Source of the DNA: a bacterium
GTDB taxonomy: Bacteria; UBP4; UBA4092; JAOAEQ01
Assembly: GCA_026416715.1 (NCBI GenBank)
Contig: JAOAEQ010000014.1
Span: 1 to 64,000 of the forward strand
Direction of reading: 5' to 3'
DNA: 64,000 nucleotides
Each line of letters begins with the position of its first letter. The stretch's first letter is position 1. The position numbers and the translations under genes are program-made. Below the pieces are notes generated by a model. That model searched no databases and had not been told where the DNA came from. It saw only the letters and a list, made by a program, of their open reading frames with translations. Shown piece by piece: positions 14,208-23,742 of the stretch.

Positions 14208-14282
14208 AATGAACCCAAAATCAACTGGATTATTGCCGGTGTATCCGCATAATCGAACTCGTTTATTTTTACAAATATCCGT

Positions 14283-14311
14283 TTTGCAATCGTATTTATC
14301 TATGATATTAT
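14283..14311 (+). promoter_or_regulatory. Extended -10 promoter for the large secreted GHL10 protein
   Basis: TTTGCA (14283-14288), a 17-base spacer and TATTAT (14306-14311) preceded by TGA. The distance to the chosen ATG at 14356 is about 45 bases. Confidence 0.45.
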
Positions 14312-14355
14312 TATATAGAATAAAGGAGTCTATTGAAAACCGAAAGGATAACAAG

Positions 14356-17300
14356 ATGAAAGTAGCTATTATAACTAAAGTATCTGTTATAGTTTCCCTA
14401 TTATGTTTAATCACAATTGCAGGAGCAGATATTATTGTAGAAAGTGGTATCGGTGGGTTGAACCGTTCATATTATTACGAAGTAGGTAGCCGATGGTTTG
14501 ATAGTACGAGCAAAAGTACTGCTGAAGGATTAACCCCAGGTATTCTCTCACGGTTTGTTAACTTGCAAACGTATCCAAATGATAGGGATACTGCGGTATT
14601 TCGCCCATATATTAATACTGCGGGTAACTATCAAGTTTTTGTAAGTTGGAATCTTGGAAATGCATCTACTGTTCGGCATACTATCTATTATTCTGGCGGG
14701 ACAGCGATTCAAGATTTGTTACAGGATGGGTATGGTCAATCGACTCCTAGCAATGCAAATATCTGGATTCCGCTAGGAACTTACAATTTTGCTAGCGGTA
14801 CTAGCGGTCGAGTTGAAGTAACGAGCACGTACGTAAGCGGCCGTCCGGGACCGATTGGTAATTATCGGGTATATGCTGATGCGGTTAAATGGGTTTGGGC
14901 AGATGCACCCGTTACGCCAGTTGCAGCGTTTACCGGTACCCCGACGACTGGGCAAACTCCATTAACCGTTTCATTTACCGATAACTCGTTAAACAATCCG
15001 ACATCATGGTTTTGGGATTTTGGTGACGGAACTACGAGCACTGTTCAAAATCCACAACACACTTATTCAACAGTTTCAGCAATAACCTATTATACCGTTA
15101 AACTCATTGTTTCAAATTCTGCCGGAACGAGTACCACGATAAAAACGAATTATATCCGCGTTACCGCTCCGTCATCTCCGCCACCAATTGCAATCGATTC
15201 CGTCACGCGAACCGGGATTATTGTTGATAATTTAGATTCTGGATTTAGTTATTTCGGTGCATGGTCGCTAGCAACCGCATATGGACAATGGGCATCGAAC
15301 TATCGACTAGCGACTACGGTAAACAATAATCTTTCAAACGCAACCGCTCGATGGCGACCGACATTGCCTGATAGTAAAAAATATAATGTTTATGTTTGGT
15401 ATCCGGCGACGACAAACCGCGTTCTCGATGCGCGGTATCGCATCTATTATTCCGGTGGAAATGAAACATTTTATGTCAACCAGACAGTAAACTATGGCGG
15501 CTGGTTCTATTTAGGATGTTTCAGTTTCGCTTCCGGGACAACCGGATATGTTGAATTGACGAACGCAACGCGAACCTCTGCTGGTTCATACTGGGTCGGT
15601 GCAGATGCAGTTATGTTTGAAGCGATAACGACCATTATTGTTGATGATAGCTTGCATTATAATAACCAATTTAAAATAACTGGCAGTTGGTCGGTAAGCA
15701 CTTCACCGCAGTATTTCTACAGTACTACGGCGCGATATGTCAGCGCGGTTACGTCCGGATTAGCTACCAGAACTGCAATTTGGCGACCGCATCTTCCAGC
15801 AAATGGTATCTATCAGGTTGAAGTATGTTATCCATCAGAAATTCTCGGGCAAACCTTAGCGAAAGATGCGAAGTTTACTGTGTATCATAAGACTGGCTAC
15901 GAGCCGGTGATTGTGCCACAATATGCGCATGGGAAATTTCTCGGCGGACATTGGTTTGATTTAGGTGTATTTGCGTTTGATAGCGGAACAACGGGATATG
16001 TCGAGTTAACCAATCTCGCGCCGGAATCGAACGGTCGTGTCGTTGCAGCGGATGCGGTTCGGTTCACGACCTATTCTCCGTTACCGGCTAGGGAAGGCGG
16101 AGAATTCCGTGCATTCTGGGCACACGGAATTAATGTTATGGGTCTACGAAGTATTCAAGAAGTAACCGCAATGATTGATACCGCGCGAATGGCGAATTAT
16201 AATGCGATAATCGTCCACGGGCGGGTTGCCGGTGATGCTTATTACGATTCCGCATATGAACCGAAATCGTCTGCGTTAGGCGCAAATACGACGTTCGATG
16301 CGATATCGGCTTGTGTCGCCTATGCGCATGATACCTCCGGCGGAAAGCCGTATATCGAGGTACATCTCTGGATGAACCCCTATCGCGATTATCGAACCGA
16401 TATGCCGCCTACTGATACTACAATGCATCTATTTTATCTCCATCCGGAATGGATTGATCAGACGTATAGTGGAACGACTCTGGTAAATAATATGATGTTC
16501 ACTAATCCAGCTATACCGGATAATCAAGATTATCATATCAAAGTCTGGATGGATGCGATTCGGAATTACGACGTTGACGGAATTCATACCGATGATTATT
16601 TCTATCAAGGGAGTAGCTGGGGATATAATACGATAGCGATTAGTCGGTTCTCAACAGAATTTGGATATTATCCATCAACCAATGACGCAAATCATGGTAA
16701 CTGGCGCCGACAAGAAGTAACCAGTTTTGTCCGGCGTGTATATGCGGAATCATTAACTATCAAACCGCATATTAAATGGTCGAAATCGCCTGTCGCTTCT
16801 GGGAGTATGATTCCGTATACTTCGAGCGCAGCGTATGCGAGCGGTTTTTCCGATTGGATTGATTGGTTAAAAAACCATTATATCGATGCGTTCGTCCCAG
16901 AAGTATATACCGGATTCAATTCGACTTTTACGACCAACGTCTGGTTTTCAACTGATACGGCAAAAGCATATGGTCGGCATAACTACGTCGGGTTAGCCTG
17001 CTACTCGCAGACAACTGCAACGATTATGACCGAAATTAACTATTGCCAGAATTCAGCGAAATCTCATGGTACGGTCTGCTTTACCTATCATCAACAGACG
17101 CCTGCTCCAATAGATAATCCGGGGTTCTATTCAATCATAACCACGGTGGTGTTTGCAAAACCGACAACAACACCGGCGATGCCGTGGAAATCGAATCCAC
17201 CGGGTGGTATCTTAAAAGGGGTTGTTGGTTCCAATCTTGCACCATATAAATTCTATAGCGGGAAATCGTTATATAAAGCGCTGGTAACCTATACCGGTCC

Positions 17301-17529
17301 ATACGGTTCCGGGTCAACGTATACTGACGGTTGTGGGTATTATTGTATGTTTGATGTGCCGTATGGAGTTTATACAGTTACTGCATATCCACCGCCTGGG
17401 GTCGTTTTAGCACCGGTATCAGTTCCTAACGTTCAAATCATTCGTGGTGTACCGACGCGAGTCGATTTGTTTTTAGATACGGTACCGGTAGAACTCTCAG
17501 CATTTACTGCAGAAGCGGTGAAACCGTAA
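14356..17529 (+). CDS. Large secreted GHL10-family protein with golvesin-like and PKD domains
   Basis: A 1057-residue exported protein. A signal peptide covers about 1-25. Golvesin/Xly-like carbohydrate-binding modules fall at about 27-178, 287-425 and 429-572. A PKD domain (189-270, with WDFGDGTTS) lies between the first two. The glycosyl-hydrolase-like GHL10 TIM barrel (DUF187) spans about 580-932 (REGGEFRAFWAHG, VDGIHTDDYFY). A carboxypeptidase-regulatory-like domain (948-1045) and a short tail, PVELSAFTAEAVKP, follow. I chose the ATG at 14356 with AAAGGA seven bases before it; the frame upstream is not conserved. It probably binds and cuts a polysaccharide outside the cell; the substrate is not shown. 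A second GHL10 gene follows. Confidence 0.88.
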   Translation: MKVAIITKVSVIVSLLCLITIAGADIIVESGIGGLNRSYYYEVGSRWFDSTSKSTAEGLTPGILSRFVNLQTYPNDRDTAVFRPYINTAGNYQVFVSWNLGNASTVRHTIYYSGGTAIQDLLQDGYGQSTPSNANIWIPLGTYNFASGTSGRVEVTSTYVSGRPGPIGNYRVYADAVKWVWADAPVTPVAAFTGTPTTGQTPLTVSFTDNSLNNPTSWFWDFGDGTTSTVQNPQHTYSTVSAITYYTVKLIVSNSAGTSTTIKTNYIRVTAPSSPPPIAIDSVTRTGIIVDNLDSGFSYFGAWSLATAYGQWASNYRLATTVNNNLSNATARWRPTLPDSKKYNVYVWYPATTNRVLDARYRIYYSGGNETFYVNQTVNYGGWFYLGCFSFASGTTGYVELTNATRTSAGSYWVGADAVMFEAITTIIVDDSLHYNNQFKITGSWSVSTSPQYFYSTTARYVSAVTSGLATRTAIWRPHLPANGIYQVEVCYPSEILGQTLAKDAKFTVYHKTGYEPVIVPQYAHGKFLGGHWFDLGVFAFDSGTTGYVELTNLAPESNGRVVAADAVRFTTYSPLPAREGGEFRAFWAHGINVMGLRSIQEVTAMIDTARMANYNAIIVHGRVAGDAYYDSAYEPKSSALGANTTFDAISACVAYAHDTSGGKPYIEVHLWMNPYRDYRTDMPPTDTTMHLFYLHPEWIDQTYSGTTLVNNMMFTNPAIPDNQDYHIKVWMDAIRNYDVDGIHTDDYFYQGSSWGYNTIAISRFSTEFGYYPSTNDANHGNWRRQEVTSFVRRVYAESLTIKPHIKWSKSPVASGSMIPYTSSAAYASGFSDWIDWLKNHYIDAFVPEVYTGFNSTFTTNVWFSTDTAKAYGRHNYVGLACYSQTTATIMTEINYCQNSAKSHGTVCFTYHQQTPAPIDNPGFYSIITTVVFAKPTTTPAMPWKSNPPGGILKGVVGSNLAPYKFYSGKSLYKALVTYTGPYGSGSTYTDGCGYYCMFDVPYGVYTVTAYPPPGVVLAPVSVPNVQIIRGVPTRVDLFLDTVPVELSAFTAEAVKP

Positions 17530-17668: not shown

Positions 17669-18970
17669 ATGCAACGAAAATCCCGATTTACTCTGTTACT
17701 TTGTCTCGTCTGCTGGATTAGTCTTTCAATATGTTACGGTGAAACCACTCGAAGGGAGACACAAGAAGTGAAACCAATGAAGTCTGAACCGGTCGTTAAC
17801 CCTGAGCACGAAATCCGAGCGCTCTGGGTAACCCGGATGAATTATAAAACTGCAGATGATGTAAATAAAATTATTACCAACGCTTATAACTATAACTTCA
17901 ATCTAATTCTGTTTCAAGTTCGCGGTAATGCGACGGTATTCTATAAATCGAAATATGAGCCCTGGGCTTGGGAATTAACCAGCACTTCAACTTCGACTAC
18001 CAGCACTGCTGAAGCAGTTAAATCGCTGGGAAAAGATCCTGGCTGGGACCCGCTAGCGACTGCAATTGATACTGCGCATGCGCTCGGACTTGAACTTCAC
18101 GCATATATGAATACCTTCCCAGCGTGGAAAGAAACCGTTCCACCGCCGGAAAATGTCAATCAGCTCTGGAATACACACCGAGATTGGTTTATGCAGGATA
18201 GTGCTGGTAATGTTATGTGGCCGCAAGATTGGTGGTCGTATTGGTATACGTTCATAGACCCTGGGGTACCAGAAGTACAGGAATATTTAACCAATATTTA
18301 TCTGGAGGTTGTTCAGAACTATGATGTTGATGGAATCCATTATGATTATATCCGCTATCCTGGAGAAGTTGGAGATTGGTCATTCAATCCGATATCGGTT
18401 AAACGGTTCACTGAAACCTATGGTGACTCGCCGCATAAGTTACCAGCGTTATGGAATGAATGGAAACGAACGCAAATAACCGAATTAGTTCGGAGAATAT
18501 ATCGTGCAGTGAATCAGGTAAAACCTGGTCGGATAACTGTTTCTGGGTCAGTCGCAGGAACCTGGGATAACGGATATACTAAATATTTTCAAGACCGAAG
18601 AACCTGGCTTGCGCAAGGAATCATTGATATGACCAACCCGATGTGTTATGTTACCACCTATAGCATTTTTTCCGCTGAAGTAGATGAACATCTAAAAAAT
18701 TCGTTCGGTCGGTTTGTGTGTCCGGGTATAGGAGTCCATCGAACGATGACCCCAGACCAGTTACTCGAACAAGTTGAGTTGGTTCGGAAACTCGGTGCTC
18801 CGGGGATAACCTTTTTTGCCTATAATAATTTATTCCCAAAACACCAACCGAATAAACTAGCGCAAGCTCTATTGACCGGACCATTCTCCCGCAAAGCAGT
18901 TATACCTCCGATGCCATGGAAACAAACTACGCGTTCTATCAAATCCCAAGAAAGACAAGAGGGAAATTAA
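17669..18970 (+). CDS. Secreted GHL10-family glycosyl-hydrolase-like protein
   Basis: A 433-residue protein with a signal peptide (about 1-24, ending ICYG) and a single GHL10 (DUF187) barrel starting with EIRALWVTRMNYKT and including VDGIHYDYIRYPGEVGDW, the family metal/substrate strand. It resembles the barrel of the preceding gene, and both barrels end in a xxMPWK motif. The AAGGAG site lies 10 bases before the ATG. It is cotranscribed or closely neighbouring with the 1057-residue protein. Members are thought to act on bacterial or algal polysaccharides; the substrate is unknown here. Confidence 0.88.
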   Translation: MQRKSRFTLLLCLVCWISLSICYGETTRRETQEVKPMKSEPVVNPEHEIRALWVTRMNYKTADDVNKIITNAYNYNFNLILFQVRGNATVFYKSKYEPWAWELTSTSTSTTSTAEAVKSLGKDPGWDPLATAIDTAHALGLELHAYMNTFPAWKETVPPPENVNQLWNTHRDWFMQDSAGNVMWPQDWWSYWYTFIDPGVPEVQEYLTNIYLEVVQNYDVDGIHYDYIRYPGEVGDWSFNPISVKRFTETYGDSPHKLPALWNEWKRTQITELVRRIYRAVNQVKPGRITVSGSVAGTWDNGYTKYFQDRRTWLAQGIIDMTNPMCYVTTYSIFSAEVDEHLKNSFGRFVCPGIGVHRTMTPDQLLEQVELVRKLGAPGITFFAYNNLFPKHQPNKLAQALLTGPFSRKAVIPPMPWKQTTRSIKSQERQEGN

Positions 18971-19181: not shown

Positions 19182-21422
19182 ATGATTATTCCGATTGGTG
19201 ATGATAATCCGCGCGAAAAGGTTCCGTATGTAACCTATAGTCTCATTGGAATTAATATTATTGTATATATCTATTTCGGCTGGATTCGCGGAAATTATGA
19301 AGAGTTTGTAACCCAATTCGGATTTATCCCAGCGCAATTTGATTTTTTAACCGTATTCACTTCGATGTTTCTCCATGGAGATATTTTCCATCTCGCTGGC
19401 AACATGCTGTATTTATGGATTTATGGCGATAATGTTGAAGCGAAATTCGGGAAAATCCGATTTCTCCTGTTTTATCTATCTTCCGGAGTTGTTGCACATG
19501 GATTGCAGACCGCGTTCTCCACCAACCTGCAGATACCGAACATCGGCGCTTCCGGCGCTATTGCCGGTGTACTCGGTGCATATCTCGTTCTATTTCCCCG
19601 GGCGAAAATCATATTCTGGTATTTCTTTATATTCTATTTTCGGATATATACCGGTCGATTCAAGGTTATCGCTTGGTTAGTGCTCGGATTCTGGTTTTTA
19701 CAGCAGATTATTTTCGGTTATTTCGGGTTATCCCAAACAACCGCACAAGAAGGCGGTGTAGCGTTTTTTGCGCATATCGGCGGATTCTTATGTGGAGTAG
19801 GCGTAATGCTTCTATTCCGCCAGACGTACCGGTTTCAGCGGAGTCGGTTATTGCGCCCGGTAATTGATGAACAGTTGAGATATCCGGTATCGTATACTTC
19901 TCAGCAGTGGAAAAATATTCGAAATTATCAGAAAACTATTAAAGAGGTGCTAATTCAACAGGGGACTGCAGTTGCGGTGCCGTTATATGAACAGATGCAG
20001 AGTCAGTATCCAAACACTGCGCTTGATTCTGAAAGTATGTTCCTCATCGCAGAATCGTATACCCGGAGAAGAGAATTCGATAAAGCGCTGGAAACCTATC
20101 AGAAAATTTTGCGGTTCGAACCGCATTCGGAGAAAGCGGATAATGCACTATGGGCTATGGCAGAGATATATCTCCAGCACTATCATCTGCCGGAAAAAGC
20201 TAACCAATGTCTGCAGATTATTGTTGATGGATATCCTTTATCCGAATGGTATGAACCTGCAAAACAAATTTTGGAACAGGAAGGAATAACGTTCGTAACG
20301 CATCGGGGAACACAAACCGTAACGAGACTCGGGTTTGCTGGTCGGCAGCTGCAGTTTACCGGACCAGTTCTAATCGGGTTGCTCTGTTCAGCTGGAACGT
20401 TGAGTTGGATGTCTGCAAGTCTCCCCCATAGAAGTGGTGGATTATTCATTGAAAAATCAGCGGGAACAATGATGACTGAAACTGAGCCGCCGGTTTGGTT
20501 GGATAATTTTGATACAAATAAACTAACCCGATGGAAAATAAAATATCCGGAAGATAATTTAGTTCGTTTATCGCAGGATAACGCGGTGAGTAAACCATAT
20601 AGTTTGCGATTTTCGCGCGAACAGCAACCGCAACAAGGGTTGATAAATCCGGCAGAAATCGTCTCCGAGACAATTCCGATTGAGTTCACCAAACCATACA
20701 CGCTATCATGCGCTATCTACTATACCGGAATGCTACTAGCACAAGAAATCGAGTTCGGCCATATTAAACTCGAAATCCAGATTATTCGGTTGCCGGTGGT
20801 CGGAACTTCAGCGAATGTTAGATATAGGTTCGGCACACAATATCGCTCGATTCAATTGAAAGATAAACCGTTTGCGCGATATTTTCCAGCGGAACAATGG
20901 AATCGGCTAGAGTTAACCGTTAACCAAGCGCAGAAAACGTTGACGATAACGATTAATGGAAACGAATGGGCGACGGTAGCGTTAGATGTCGCGAATCTAG
21001 ACCCGAAACCGAAAATCCGGGTTAGCGCCAGTTTGCCCGCACCGACAAACAATCTATCGGAAACGACGATTGTTTATCTCGATGACATCGCAGTGTACGG
21101 CAAAAAAATCGTTGAACCGAAAGCTGAAACGAAACAAATTTCACCAGAGCCGAAATTTAACGCTGAATTTCTGGAAATATATCAACTCGGATGGAGTCAA
21201 TATAAAAATGGGGAATATTATTCTGCAATAACGAGCTTCCAGAAAGCATTAGCATTAAATCCGCAGTCGCCAGAAGCGGTTAATGCGCTCGGATTAGCCT
21301 ATCGGCAAATCGGCGATGTAGAAAAAGCTAGAGAGCAATTTCAATTAGCGCTTATTCTCGACCCGAACTTCGTTCCCGCCAAACATAATCTGGAAACTCT
21401 ACCTGCTGAGACTACCAAATAA
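19182..21422 (+). CDS. Rhomboid intramembrane serine protease fused to TPR and lectin-like domains
   Basis: A 746-residue membrane protein. Residues 1-215 form a rhomboid core with the serine S124 in NIGASGAIAG, H198 in AFFAHIGG, and N74 and H70 in HLAGNML, giving a complete active site. TPR-like helices follow at about 245-365, one more membrane span at 389-414 (LQFTGPVLIGLLCSAGTLSW), a laminin-G/jelly-roll-like domain at about 430-641, and a TPR pair at 660-746. The TPRs probably gather clients and the jelly-roll may bind glycans; substrates are unknown. The rhomboid reads are strong. The later domains are inferred from pattern. Confidence 0.88.
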   Translation: MIIPIGDDNPREKVPYVTYSLIGINIIVYIYFGWIRGNYEEFVTQFGFIPAQFDFLTVFTSMFLHGDIFHLAGNMLYLWIYGDNVEAKFGKIRFLLFYLSSGVVAHGLQTAFSTNLQIPNIGASGAIAGVLGAYLVLFPRAKIIFWYFFIFYFRIYTGRFKVIAWLVLGFWFLQQIIFGYFGLSQTTAQEGGVAFFAHIGGFLCGVGVMLLFRQTYRFQRSRLLRPVIDEQLRYPVSYTSQQWKNIRNYQKTIKEVLIQQGTAVAVPLYEQMQSQYPNTALDSESMFLIAESYTRRREFDKALETYQKILRFEPHSEKADNALWAMAEIYLQHYHLPEKANQCLQIIVDGYPLSEWYEPAKQILEQEGITFVTHRGTQTVTRLGFAGRQLQFTGPVLIGLLCSAGTLSWMSASLPHRSGGLFIEKSAGTMMTETEPPVWLDNFDTNKLTRWKIKYPEDNLVRLSQDNAVSKPYSLRFSREQQPQQGLINPAEIVSETIPIEFTKPYTLSCAIYYTGMLLAQEIEFGHIKLEIQIIRLPVVGTSANVRYRFGTQYRSIQLKDKPFARYFPAEQWNRLELTVNQAQKTLTITINGNEWATVALDVANLDPKPKIRVSASLPAPTNNLSETTIVYLDDIAVYGKKIVEPKAETKQISPEPKFNAEFLEIYQLGWSQYKNGEYYSAITSFQKALALNPQSPEAVNALGLAYRQIGDVEKAREQFQLALILDPNFVPAKHNLETLPAETTK

Positions 21423-21642: not shown

Positions 21643-22164
21643 TCATTTCGCGCCAGCGAACTTTAAGAGTTGCACGATTTCAGTTAAAGCGCGATTCTCC
21701 GCACACTGTAATGCGGTGAGTCCATATCGGTCTCGAATATTCAAATCTGCACCGTGCGATATCAGTAAATCAACAGTTTCGATATTTCCGGATTTTGCCG
21801 CAAACATTAATGCTGTCTCATTGAAAATCGTGGTAGCGTTCACATCCGCACCGTGCTCAATTAACACTTTCGCTACTTCCGGATGTCGGAAATGCGCCGC
21901 AAATATCAGCGGAGTCCAGCCGAATGCTGCGGTTTTCGCATTCACATCCGCACCATGGTCAATGAGCAAATATGCGATACGCGGTCGTCCCTTTTTCGCC
22001 GCAAACATTAATGCAGTCCAGTTCCGTTTATTCCGTTCGTTCGGGTCTGCGCCTTGTGTTAATAAGGTTAGAACCTGGTCAATGTCTCCTTCATCGCATG
22101 CGCGCATTAAGGGAGTCAAATCATCTTCCAGCCCAATTTCTTCAATATCTATAGTATCAGCCAT
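21643..22164 (-). CDS. Ankyrin-repeat protein
   Basis: A 173-residue protein made of about four and a half ankyrin repeats (for example GADVNAKTAAFGWTPLIF and HGADVNATTIFNETALMFAA), with a short acidic N-terminus. No signal peptide or extra domain is present. Ankyrin repeats are protein-protein interaction scaffolds; the partner is unknown. It is closely similar to the next minus-strand gene, suggesting tandem duplication. It is the last gene of a minus-strand run that begins with the CHC2/GGDEF-like gene. Confidence 0.92.
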   Translation of the reverse strand: MADTIDIEEIGLEDDLTPLMRACDEGDIDQVLTLLTQGADPNERNKRNWTALMFAAKKGRPRIAYLLIDHGADVNAKTAAFGWTPLIFAAHFRHPEVAKVLIEHGADVNATTIFNETALMFAAKSGNIETVDLLISHGADLNIRDRYGLTALQCAENRALTEIVQLLKFAGAK

Positions 22165-22208: not shown

Positions 22209-22865
22209 TTATTCTTTCGCCCCAGCAGATTTTAGTAAGTTGACGAGTTCCGAATAGTTCCTATTCTGTGCGAATTTCAATGCAGTCCATCCATATCGGT
22301 CTTTCGCATTCAGGTCAGCGTTTTTTCTGATGAGTAGTGATGCTATATCCAGCAACCCGTTACGAGCAGCAAACATTAACGCAGTTTCATTAAATATAGT
22401 TACGGCGTTAACGTTTGCTCCACTTTCTAGAAGAAGTTCAACTATTTCCTGATGCTGATAATACACCGCAAAAATTAATGCAGTCCATCCAAACGCGGTT
22501 GTCGCAATATTGGGGTTTGCCCCGTGGGATAATAATAATTTCGCTATTTCTATTCTTCCGAGCTTTGCAGCGAGCATTAACGCAGTCCAGTTCCGTTTAT
22601 CCACCGCATTAACATTAGCCTTATGTTCTAGCAGAAGTTCTACGATATCGGTTGTTCCATGTTTAACCGCAAAATGTAATGCTGGAACACCATCTGGTGA
22701 TGTTGTATTCGGGTCTATTCCGGCAGCGAGAAATAATGAAACAATCTTATCCTCTCCGGATTCAAGATATGAGAGAAAGGTTGCGGAACTGAACTCAATA
22801 TTCAGCCGTTTCAGTTCTTGACGTGCTGGTTCGGAAGATATATTCGACATAACATATCCCAGCAT
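22209..22865 (-). CDS. Ankyrin-repeat protein, paralogue of its neighbour
   Basis: A 218-residue protein with about five ankyrin repeats after a helical N-terminal segment. Repeats share long stretches with the neighbouring gene (NKRNWTALM..., AFGWTALIF, VTIFNETALMFAA), so the pair arose by duplication and has since diverged. It lies 16 bases after the CHC2/GGDEF-like gene stop, so it is probably in the same transcript. The 44-base gap to the second ankyrin gene suggests one operon. A regulatory protein partner is likely but not identified. Confidence 0.92.
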   Translation of the reverse strand: MLGYVMSNISSEPARQELKRLNIEFSSATFLSYLESGEDKIVSLFLAAGIDPNTTSPDGVPALHFAVKHGTTDIVELLLEHKANVNAVDKRNWTALMLAAKLGRIEIAKLLLSHGANPNIATTAFGWTALIFAVYYQHQEIVELLLESGANVNAVTIFNETALMFAARNGLLDIASLLIRKNADLNAKDRYGWTALKFAQNRNYSELVNLLKSAGAKE

Positions 22866-22881: not shown

Positions 22882-23742
22882 TTAACTTGATTCCGCTAGT
22901 CGTAACGTCATCCGTCTCTTCTGAAGGGCTTCGGTAATCAATGATTTACTGGTTTTATGCGTTCGCCCTTTTTGTCCATCATACGTAGTTACACTATAAT
23001 TAAAGATGATATTTTCAATCGGCATCGTCTGTAAAGTTGAGAAACTGCCATTGGTCAATTGTTTTTTAATTTTTCGTAGAAGGATAGTAACACCTTTTTC
23101 GTCTGTATCCGGGAGAATCAATAGAATCAATTCATCAGAATATTGTGCAACAATATCAATCCCACGAACTATTTTCGGTAACCAATTCGCTATTTCAACA
23201 ATCAGCGTTTTTTTCGTCCAGTATTCTTGTGAAGGTAATCCAATGTTTTGAATATTGATTTCAAGGAGCACCAACGTTACCTTATTTTTTTGTCGTTCGG
23301 CACGGCGCATTTCCAAAGTAACAAGCCGATTGATTTGTTTCAAATCGGCTGGAAAATAATTTAATTCATCACTCGCGGTACTTATTCCCGATTCTTTCTG
23401 AACCCCAACGATTTCCGCTGCTTCTTTTTCAATCCCGAGTTTCGTTGCCCAAAATGTTACACTATCTATAAGGGGAATATTTTTACCAAGTGAATATAAC
23501 TCTAATAAGTTGCCACCCTTATATCCAGCACAAGGTACATACGAACATTTGAAATGCTTGCGGTCTAAATCTATTGCTAAACTTCGAACCACGGTATCTT
23601 TATGAATCGGACAGAACACGCGCATCAAATTCCCATTAAAGGTTGCCTGATGCTTCTGGTCAATCCCTAATGCAGATAGCACCTCTTGCGGGGTTAATAG
23701 ATTCAAGATGCGAGTAACTAAAATATCGAATTGCGTCGCCAT
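22882..23742 (-). CDS. DnaG-type zinc-finger protein fused to a degenerate GGDEF domain
   Basis: A 286-residue protein. The first 110 residues resemble the primase CHC2 zinc domain: C44-x2-H47 and C66-x4-C71, with FKCSYVPCAGYKGGNLLELY-like spacing. Residues 135-280 align with GGDEF-family folds (IDIVAQYSDELILLILPDTD), but the GGDEF signature is replaced by YSDEL at 201-205, so it should not make c-di-GMP. The pairing of a DNA/ssRNA-type zinc finger with a nucleotide-cyclase fold is unusual. It heads a run with two ankyrin genes. Its role is unknown. Confidence 0.75.
   Translation of the reverse strand: MATQFDILVTRILNLLTPQEVLSALGIDQKHQATFNGNLMRVFCPIHKDTVVRSLAIDLDRKHFKCSYVPCAGYKGGNLLELYSLGKNIPLIDSVTFWATKLGIEKEAAEIVGVQKESGISTASDELNYFPADLKQINRLVTLEMRRAERQKNKVTLVLLEINIQNIGLPSQEYWTKKTLIVEIANWLPKIVRGIDIVAQYSDELILLILPDTDEKGVTILLRKIKKQLTNGSFSTLQTMPIENIIFNYSVTTYDGQKGRTHKTSKSLITEALQKRRMTLRLAESS

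Follow-up and report, generated by a model that had tools for sequence, protein, structure and literature searches.

A TPR-tailed rhomboid protease, probably fused to a membrane-anchored jelly-roll/TPR protein, in a bacterium of the UBP4 lineage

Within the 64,000-nucleotide stretch of bacterial DNA analyzed here (contig JAOAEQ010000014.1 of assembly GCA_026416715.1, hereafter the window), one open reading frame of 746 codons, running from ATG to stop with no internal stops, encodes a rhomboid core, a first TPR block (TPR1), an additional membrane span, a jelly-roll-like domain and a second TPR pair (TPR2) on a single chain (Table 1). We assign a probability of about one half to the reading that this protein is a TPR-tailed rhomboid protease whose chain has been fused, near residue 370, with a jelly-roll/TPR protein anchored in the membrane, the whole serving regulated cleavage or quality control. 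The architecture is that proposed by an initial annotation of the DNA, and the single frame and its Pfam matches confirm it; no stop or frame break separates the rhomboid and TPR parts in the sequence. Since significant relatives were found for both halves, chance was dismissed as an explanation. Rfam returned zero matches in the window at gathering scores.

Table 1. Positions in the window of the rhomboid/jelly-roll gene and of its parts.
Feature	Window coordinates	Strand	Basis
Whole gene (rhomboid, TPR1, span 7, jelly roll, TPR2)	19182..21422	+	ORF, translation, Pfam
Rhomboid core, residues 55-212	19344..19817	+	Pfam PF01694
Catalytic serine S124	19551..19553	+	Motif; identical in 71/71 aligned rhomboids
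Catalytic histidine H198	19773..19775	+	Motif; His in 70/71, one gap
First TPR block, residues 248-361	19923..20264	+	NCBIfam, YbgF-TPR-like, below that model's cut-off
Seventh hydrophobic span, residues 392-410	20355..20411	+	GES scale; 390-408 by Kyte-Doolittle
Jelly-roll-like beta domain, residues 433-645	20478..21116	+	HMMs, low-confidence model, structure comparison
Second TPR pair and capping helix, residues 661-738	21162..21395	+	Pfam; confident helices in whole-chain model

The rhomboid core is unambiguous (E 1.2e-30, 107 bits against a Pfam cut-off of 22.6) and complete as first annotated, with S124 lying in a GASG motif (from residue 122) and H198 in FAHIGG (from residue 196). We aligned it with a set of 71 rhomboid frames, comprising distinct cores gathered from 123 loci by BLAST at E values up to 1e-12, a limit that leaves out weaker ones (L102 at least); H70 and N74, the conserved His and Asn of span 2, are as invariant across the set as the catalytic serine. 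Rhomboids are common, residues 1–230 matching 272 of 386 sampled genomes (E 0.001), and a single one was found in the genome that carries the window. Several TPR families also exceed their Pfam cut-offs in the protein, the best stretches being residues 284–316 and 667–729.

The closest functional parallel is YqgP (GluP) of Bacillus subtilis, in which a TPR domain likewise follows the rhomboid core, and which cleaves MgtE as well as presenting it to FtsH (PMC7231995). That presentation of MgtE is independent of YqgP activity in the same account, and two TPR blocks on one chain would suit a protein acting mainly as an adaptor, pseudoprotease-like, that leaves the cutting of membrane proteins to another protease, to which it hands them; with the catalytic residues retained in what is the only rhomboid found in this genome, we regard such a role as very unlikely.

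We next consider how the chain is disposed in the membrane. On the GES scale six spans precede residue 213 (17–35, 46–64, 94–112, 121–139, 163–181 and 194–212), the seventh follows the first TPR block, and a much weaker stretch (502–520) falls within the beta domain; the Kyte-Doolittle scale at 1.3 also gives six spans, in that it recovers the seventh together with five of the six core spans and misses 94–112. A further span between the TPRs and the jelly roll, as originally annotated, is thus located by hydrophobicity. The segment after span 6 carries 8 K/R against 2 D/E and that before span 7 carries 3 K/R against 0 D/E, a distribution of basic residues that is consistent with TPR1 lying inside. 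Combining these charges with the standard rhomboid topology, we infer a cytoplasmic location for the N-terminus and TPR1, and an external one, on the face to which rhomboid active sites open, for the jelly roll and TPR2. Both this genome and the one other genome of the phylum that was compared (G001) carry LpxK, which fits an outer membrane and hence a periplasm.

The two halves of the chain resemble proteins that are separate elsewhere, so that it has the appearance of a gene fusion, and it is probably, on comparison of sequences, a fusion of two proteins known individually. Residues 1–367 resemble stand-alone rhomboid-TPR proteins of 364–422 residues from genomes outside the phylum. Two of these, L111 in G126 (a 375-residue frame) and L106 in G263 (390 residues), align with residues 2–367 at ~35% identity and both end soon after; these proteins and others like them (L122 and L123 in the same two genomes among them) share the core and C-terminal TPR tail of the window protein but stop at about its residue 367, and lack span 7, the jelly roll and the second TPR pair. 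Among 19 rhomboid loci picked by hand for long open frames from the matches listed, 11 extend at least 80 residues beyond the core, and eight of the ten long-tailed relatives scanned have TPR matches (E up to 0.001), L096 and L109 being the exceptions; L122, which is the same gene as L111, has them too. TPR matches being present in these stand-alone relatives, the rhomboid-TPR combination is an established architecture.

A tree of the 71 cores joins the window protein to ten other long-tailed rhomboids (98/96), with an eleventh, L109, falling outside. We rejected a firm assignment of it to a rhomboid-TPR clade: upon removal of five long branches, four of them long-tailed, the window protein lies nearest to short rhomboids in no supported group, and because the grouping is lost in this way, common descent of the TPR tail is not established. 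As a separate observation, the rhomboid ORF at L107 (a 375-residue frame, - strand) has an N-terminus with paired CPxC-type, zinc-ribbon-like stretches.

The counterpart of the second half is found in G001, where a separate 385-residue gene, P0002 (L060:3906-5063), matches residues 436–737 (E 3.6e-12) and aligns end to end with residues 370–746 at 28% identity. P0002 has the same order of parts, beginning with a hydrophobic span of its own and continuing through jelly roll and TPR pair, but no rhomboid is attached to it; the single rhomboid found in G001 is of the short type and lies on another contig. The P0002 frame, on the - strand, overlaps the start of the open frame for LpxK.

Detection of the jelly roll in other genomes depends on the query employed. 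Residues 371–663 (span 7 plus jelly roll) as a single query match two of 386 genomes (its own and G272) and nothing in G001 at E 0.001, and a two-row jelly-roll HMM likewise finds nothing in G001 at E 1; the jelly-roll parts of the two proteins nevertheless align pairwise at E 2e-7, and a three-row HMM (built from the window, G001 and G272 rows) matches five of 372 genomes, namely its own, G001, G272, G100 and G304. Leave-one-out HMMs score the jelly rolls of the window, G001, G272 and G100 at 63.7, 24.0, 108.9 and 70.4 bits, respectively, where the best of 1000 shuffles reached 6.6, 4.7, 4.7 and 4.6 bits. The four are likely homologous on these scores, G001 being the weakest case.

Elsewhere the domain sits in varied company. 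In G272 (L112:3777-6740) it is called CBM_4_9 by Pfam (26.6 against a cut-off of 25.9), within a 987-residue chain that also matches a C39-like peptidase below threshold and carries a sorting-type domain at its C-terminus; a scan of genome contigs returned one locus, L112 of Candidatus Eisenbacteria, which encodes this same protein, and of eight genomes searched from the phylum of G272 none besides G272 matched. The chain bearing it in G100 contains an HETGH motif and is seen as two matches at contig ends (L120:3-2138 and L119:3649-4572) that are nearly identical in their overlap, and for which Pfam gives no peptidase above cut-off and CBM_4_9 below it. G304 contributes two weak relatives, both of them small proteins whose genes adjoin a large one in the same orientation; from its sequence, we take that large gene to be glucuronidase-like. 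An ancient one-piece family was rejected, the frames read in G001, G272, G100 and G304 that match the jelly roll being non-rhomboid.

None of the 70 other rhomboids in the set matched this domain: a four-row jelly-roll HMM run against all 71 frames finds the window protein only, with a runner-up at E 2.7. Among the papers listed by a literature search, covered by title and abstract opening, no rhomboid-lectin fusion appeared, and the CBM_1 motif given for Rv1337 in Table 2 of PMC2989971 (E 0.17) is too weak to serve as a precedent.

An unbroken fusion frame is seen in one genome, and no second genome with the fusion appeared among those searched, which raises the question of whether the two halves came together by accident (through an error in sequencing or assembly, or through recent stop loss) and do not work together. 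The disposition of the parts in G001, as separate genes on different contigs with a short-type rhomboid, accords with this, as do the base composition of the linker (residues 368–430, GC 0.497 as against 0.416–0.440 in the other segments) and the presence of frame +1 stops at 20287, 20296 and 20320, such that a stop there could have been masked by a frameshift. We nonetheless hold an accidental join to be unlikely: no in-frame ATG, GTG or TTG occurs between the TTG at 20271 (residue 364) and that at 20379 (residue 400, inside span 7), so that in the simplest case an error must have hidden both a start and a stop. No ribosome-binding site is evident at the TTG at 20271, but the main start lacks one as well, and the argument from start codons is consequently not a strong one.

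We then sought to define the fold of the jelly-roll region. When the whole chain was folded from its sequence alone, the model was poor (mean pLDDT 39.0), though with a confident second TPR pair; folding the jelly-roll region together with one relative gave an all-beta domain (mean pLDDT 44.9, pTM 0.50). Foldseek places a toxin receptor-binding domain first for this model (6hox, E 3.2e-5), followed mostly by galectins, and VIA-align superimposes the low-confidence model on galectins with Z scores of 11.9 (141 residues, 4.0 Å) and 11.6 (122 residues, 2.4 Å). A profile search of solved structures returned two chains only, the best at E 0.34. The jelly roll of the initial annotation is recovered here as an all-beta domain with galectin-like matches, at low confidence; assignment of residues 433–645 as a galectin-type jelly roll is supported by the modeling, and a jelly roll also by the related domains in other genomes, but not settled.

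A related question is whether the domain is a true lectin, which would hold glycosylated substrates or envelope glycan beside the protease as initially suggested. Its likeness to galectins and CBM_4_9 is one of modeled fold, and 'lectin' as applied to such a model describes only its shape. Glycan binding does not follow from a jelly roll of this type: the fold does not reveal the ligand, the galectins listed are 5–11% identical to the domain, and CBM_4_9 matches occur in relatives (above cut-off in G272, below it in G100) and not in the window domain, for which residues 371–653 searched against Pfam at E 1 give no carbohydrate-binding module family. The nearest Pfam entry there is 3keto-disac_hyd (PF06439), sub-threshold at residues 441–599 with the whole chain as query (E 0.0017, 18.9 bits against a cut-off of 26.8) and still so with residues 371–653 (21.4 bits). 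Other relatives of the domain are on chains with peptidase-like features. The galectin matches, the CBM_4_9 calls, the presumed glucuronidase-like neighbor in G304 and a pair of glycosidase-like genes upstream of the window gene all speak for a lectin; weighing these against the foregoing, we consider it improbable that the domain is one.

The upstream pair comprises two consecutive GHL10 glycosidase-like genes (14209-17529 and 17669-18970, both +), the first of which also encodes three Golvesin_C stretches and a PKD domain. A BLAST search for GHL10 relatives near the other rhomboid loci retrieved gave copies of the GHL10 gene from the window itself and a single weak match, in L010, that falls beyond the GHL10 part; nothing in it connects the upstream pair with the rhomboid gene. 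In the DigH paper, a search for the words GHL10, DUF187 and YddW came back empty, and for that reason we claim no link to peptidoglycan. On the other side of the rhomboid gene, neighboring genes at 21643-22164 and 22209-22865 (-) encode ankyrin-repeat proteins and look like a tandem pair; they are followed at 22882-23742 (-) by a GGDEF-family protein just above cut-off that has a degenerate-looking GGDEF motif and a cysteine-rich N-terminus, presumably primase zinc-finger-like.

Under our preferred reading of the chain as a fused, TPR-tailed rhomboid protease, which would probably sit in the inner membrane, the predicted topology makes it plausible that recognition and cutting are joined on one chain. 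The outer module, jelly roll plus TPR2, would hold a partner or substrate (a protein, perhaps via a glycan) close to the mouth of the active site; the TPR arm on the inside would dock a cytoplasmic partner, and the rhomboid core would then cut the chosen membrane protein. By analogy with YqgP and GlpG, the chain may serve regulated cleavage or the quality control of membrane proteins. The parallel with YqgP has its limits: its TPRs are outside the cell, as we suggest for TPR2, and it has a cytosolic N-terminal domain binding Mn and Zn, where span 1 of the window protein is preceded by only 16 residues; the excerpted text of PMC7231995, moreover, describes for YqgP neither a jelly roll nor a cytoplasmic block like the one that TPR1 is predicted to be. 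One might also envisage a single-chain receptor-protease, whose jelly roll would sense a glycan or glycoprotein ligand of the envelope and, by way of span 7, govern cutting by the rhomboid core, with the cytoplasmic TPR arm relaying the result; we judge this quite improbable, and were it true, the same parts would work as two separate proteins in the sister genome.

GlpG and Rhom7 target and remove orphan membrane proteins (PMC7232013), and the substrates and partners of bacterial rhomboids are, according to PMC7231995 and PMC7232013, mostly unknown. If the fusion described here is real, the usual gene-fusion argument would predict that in the sister lineage the separate jelly-roll/TPR membrane protein and the rhomboid act together.
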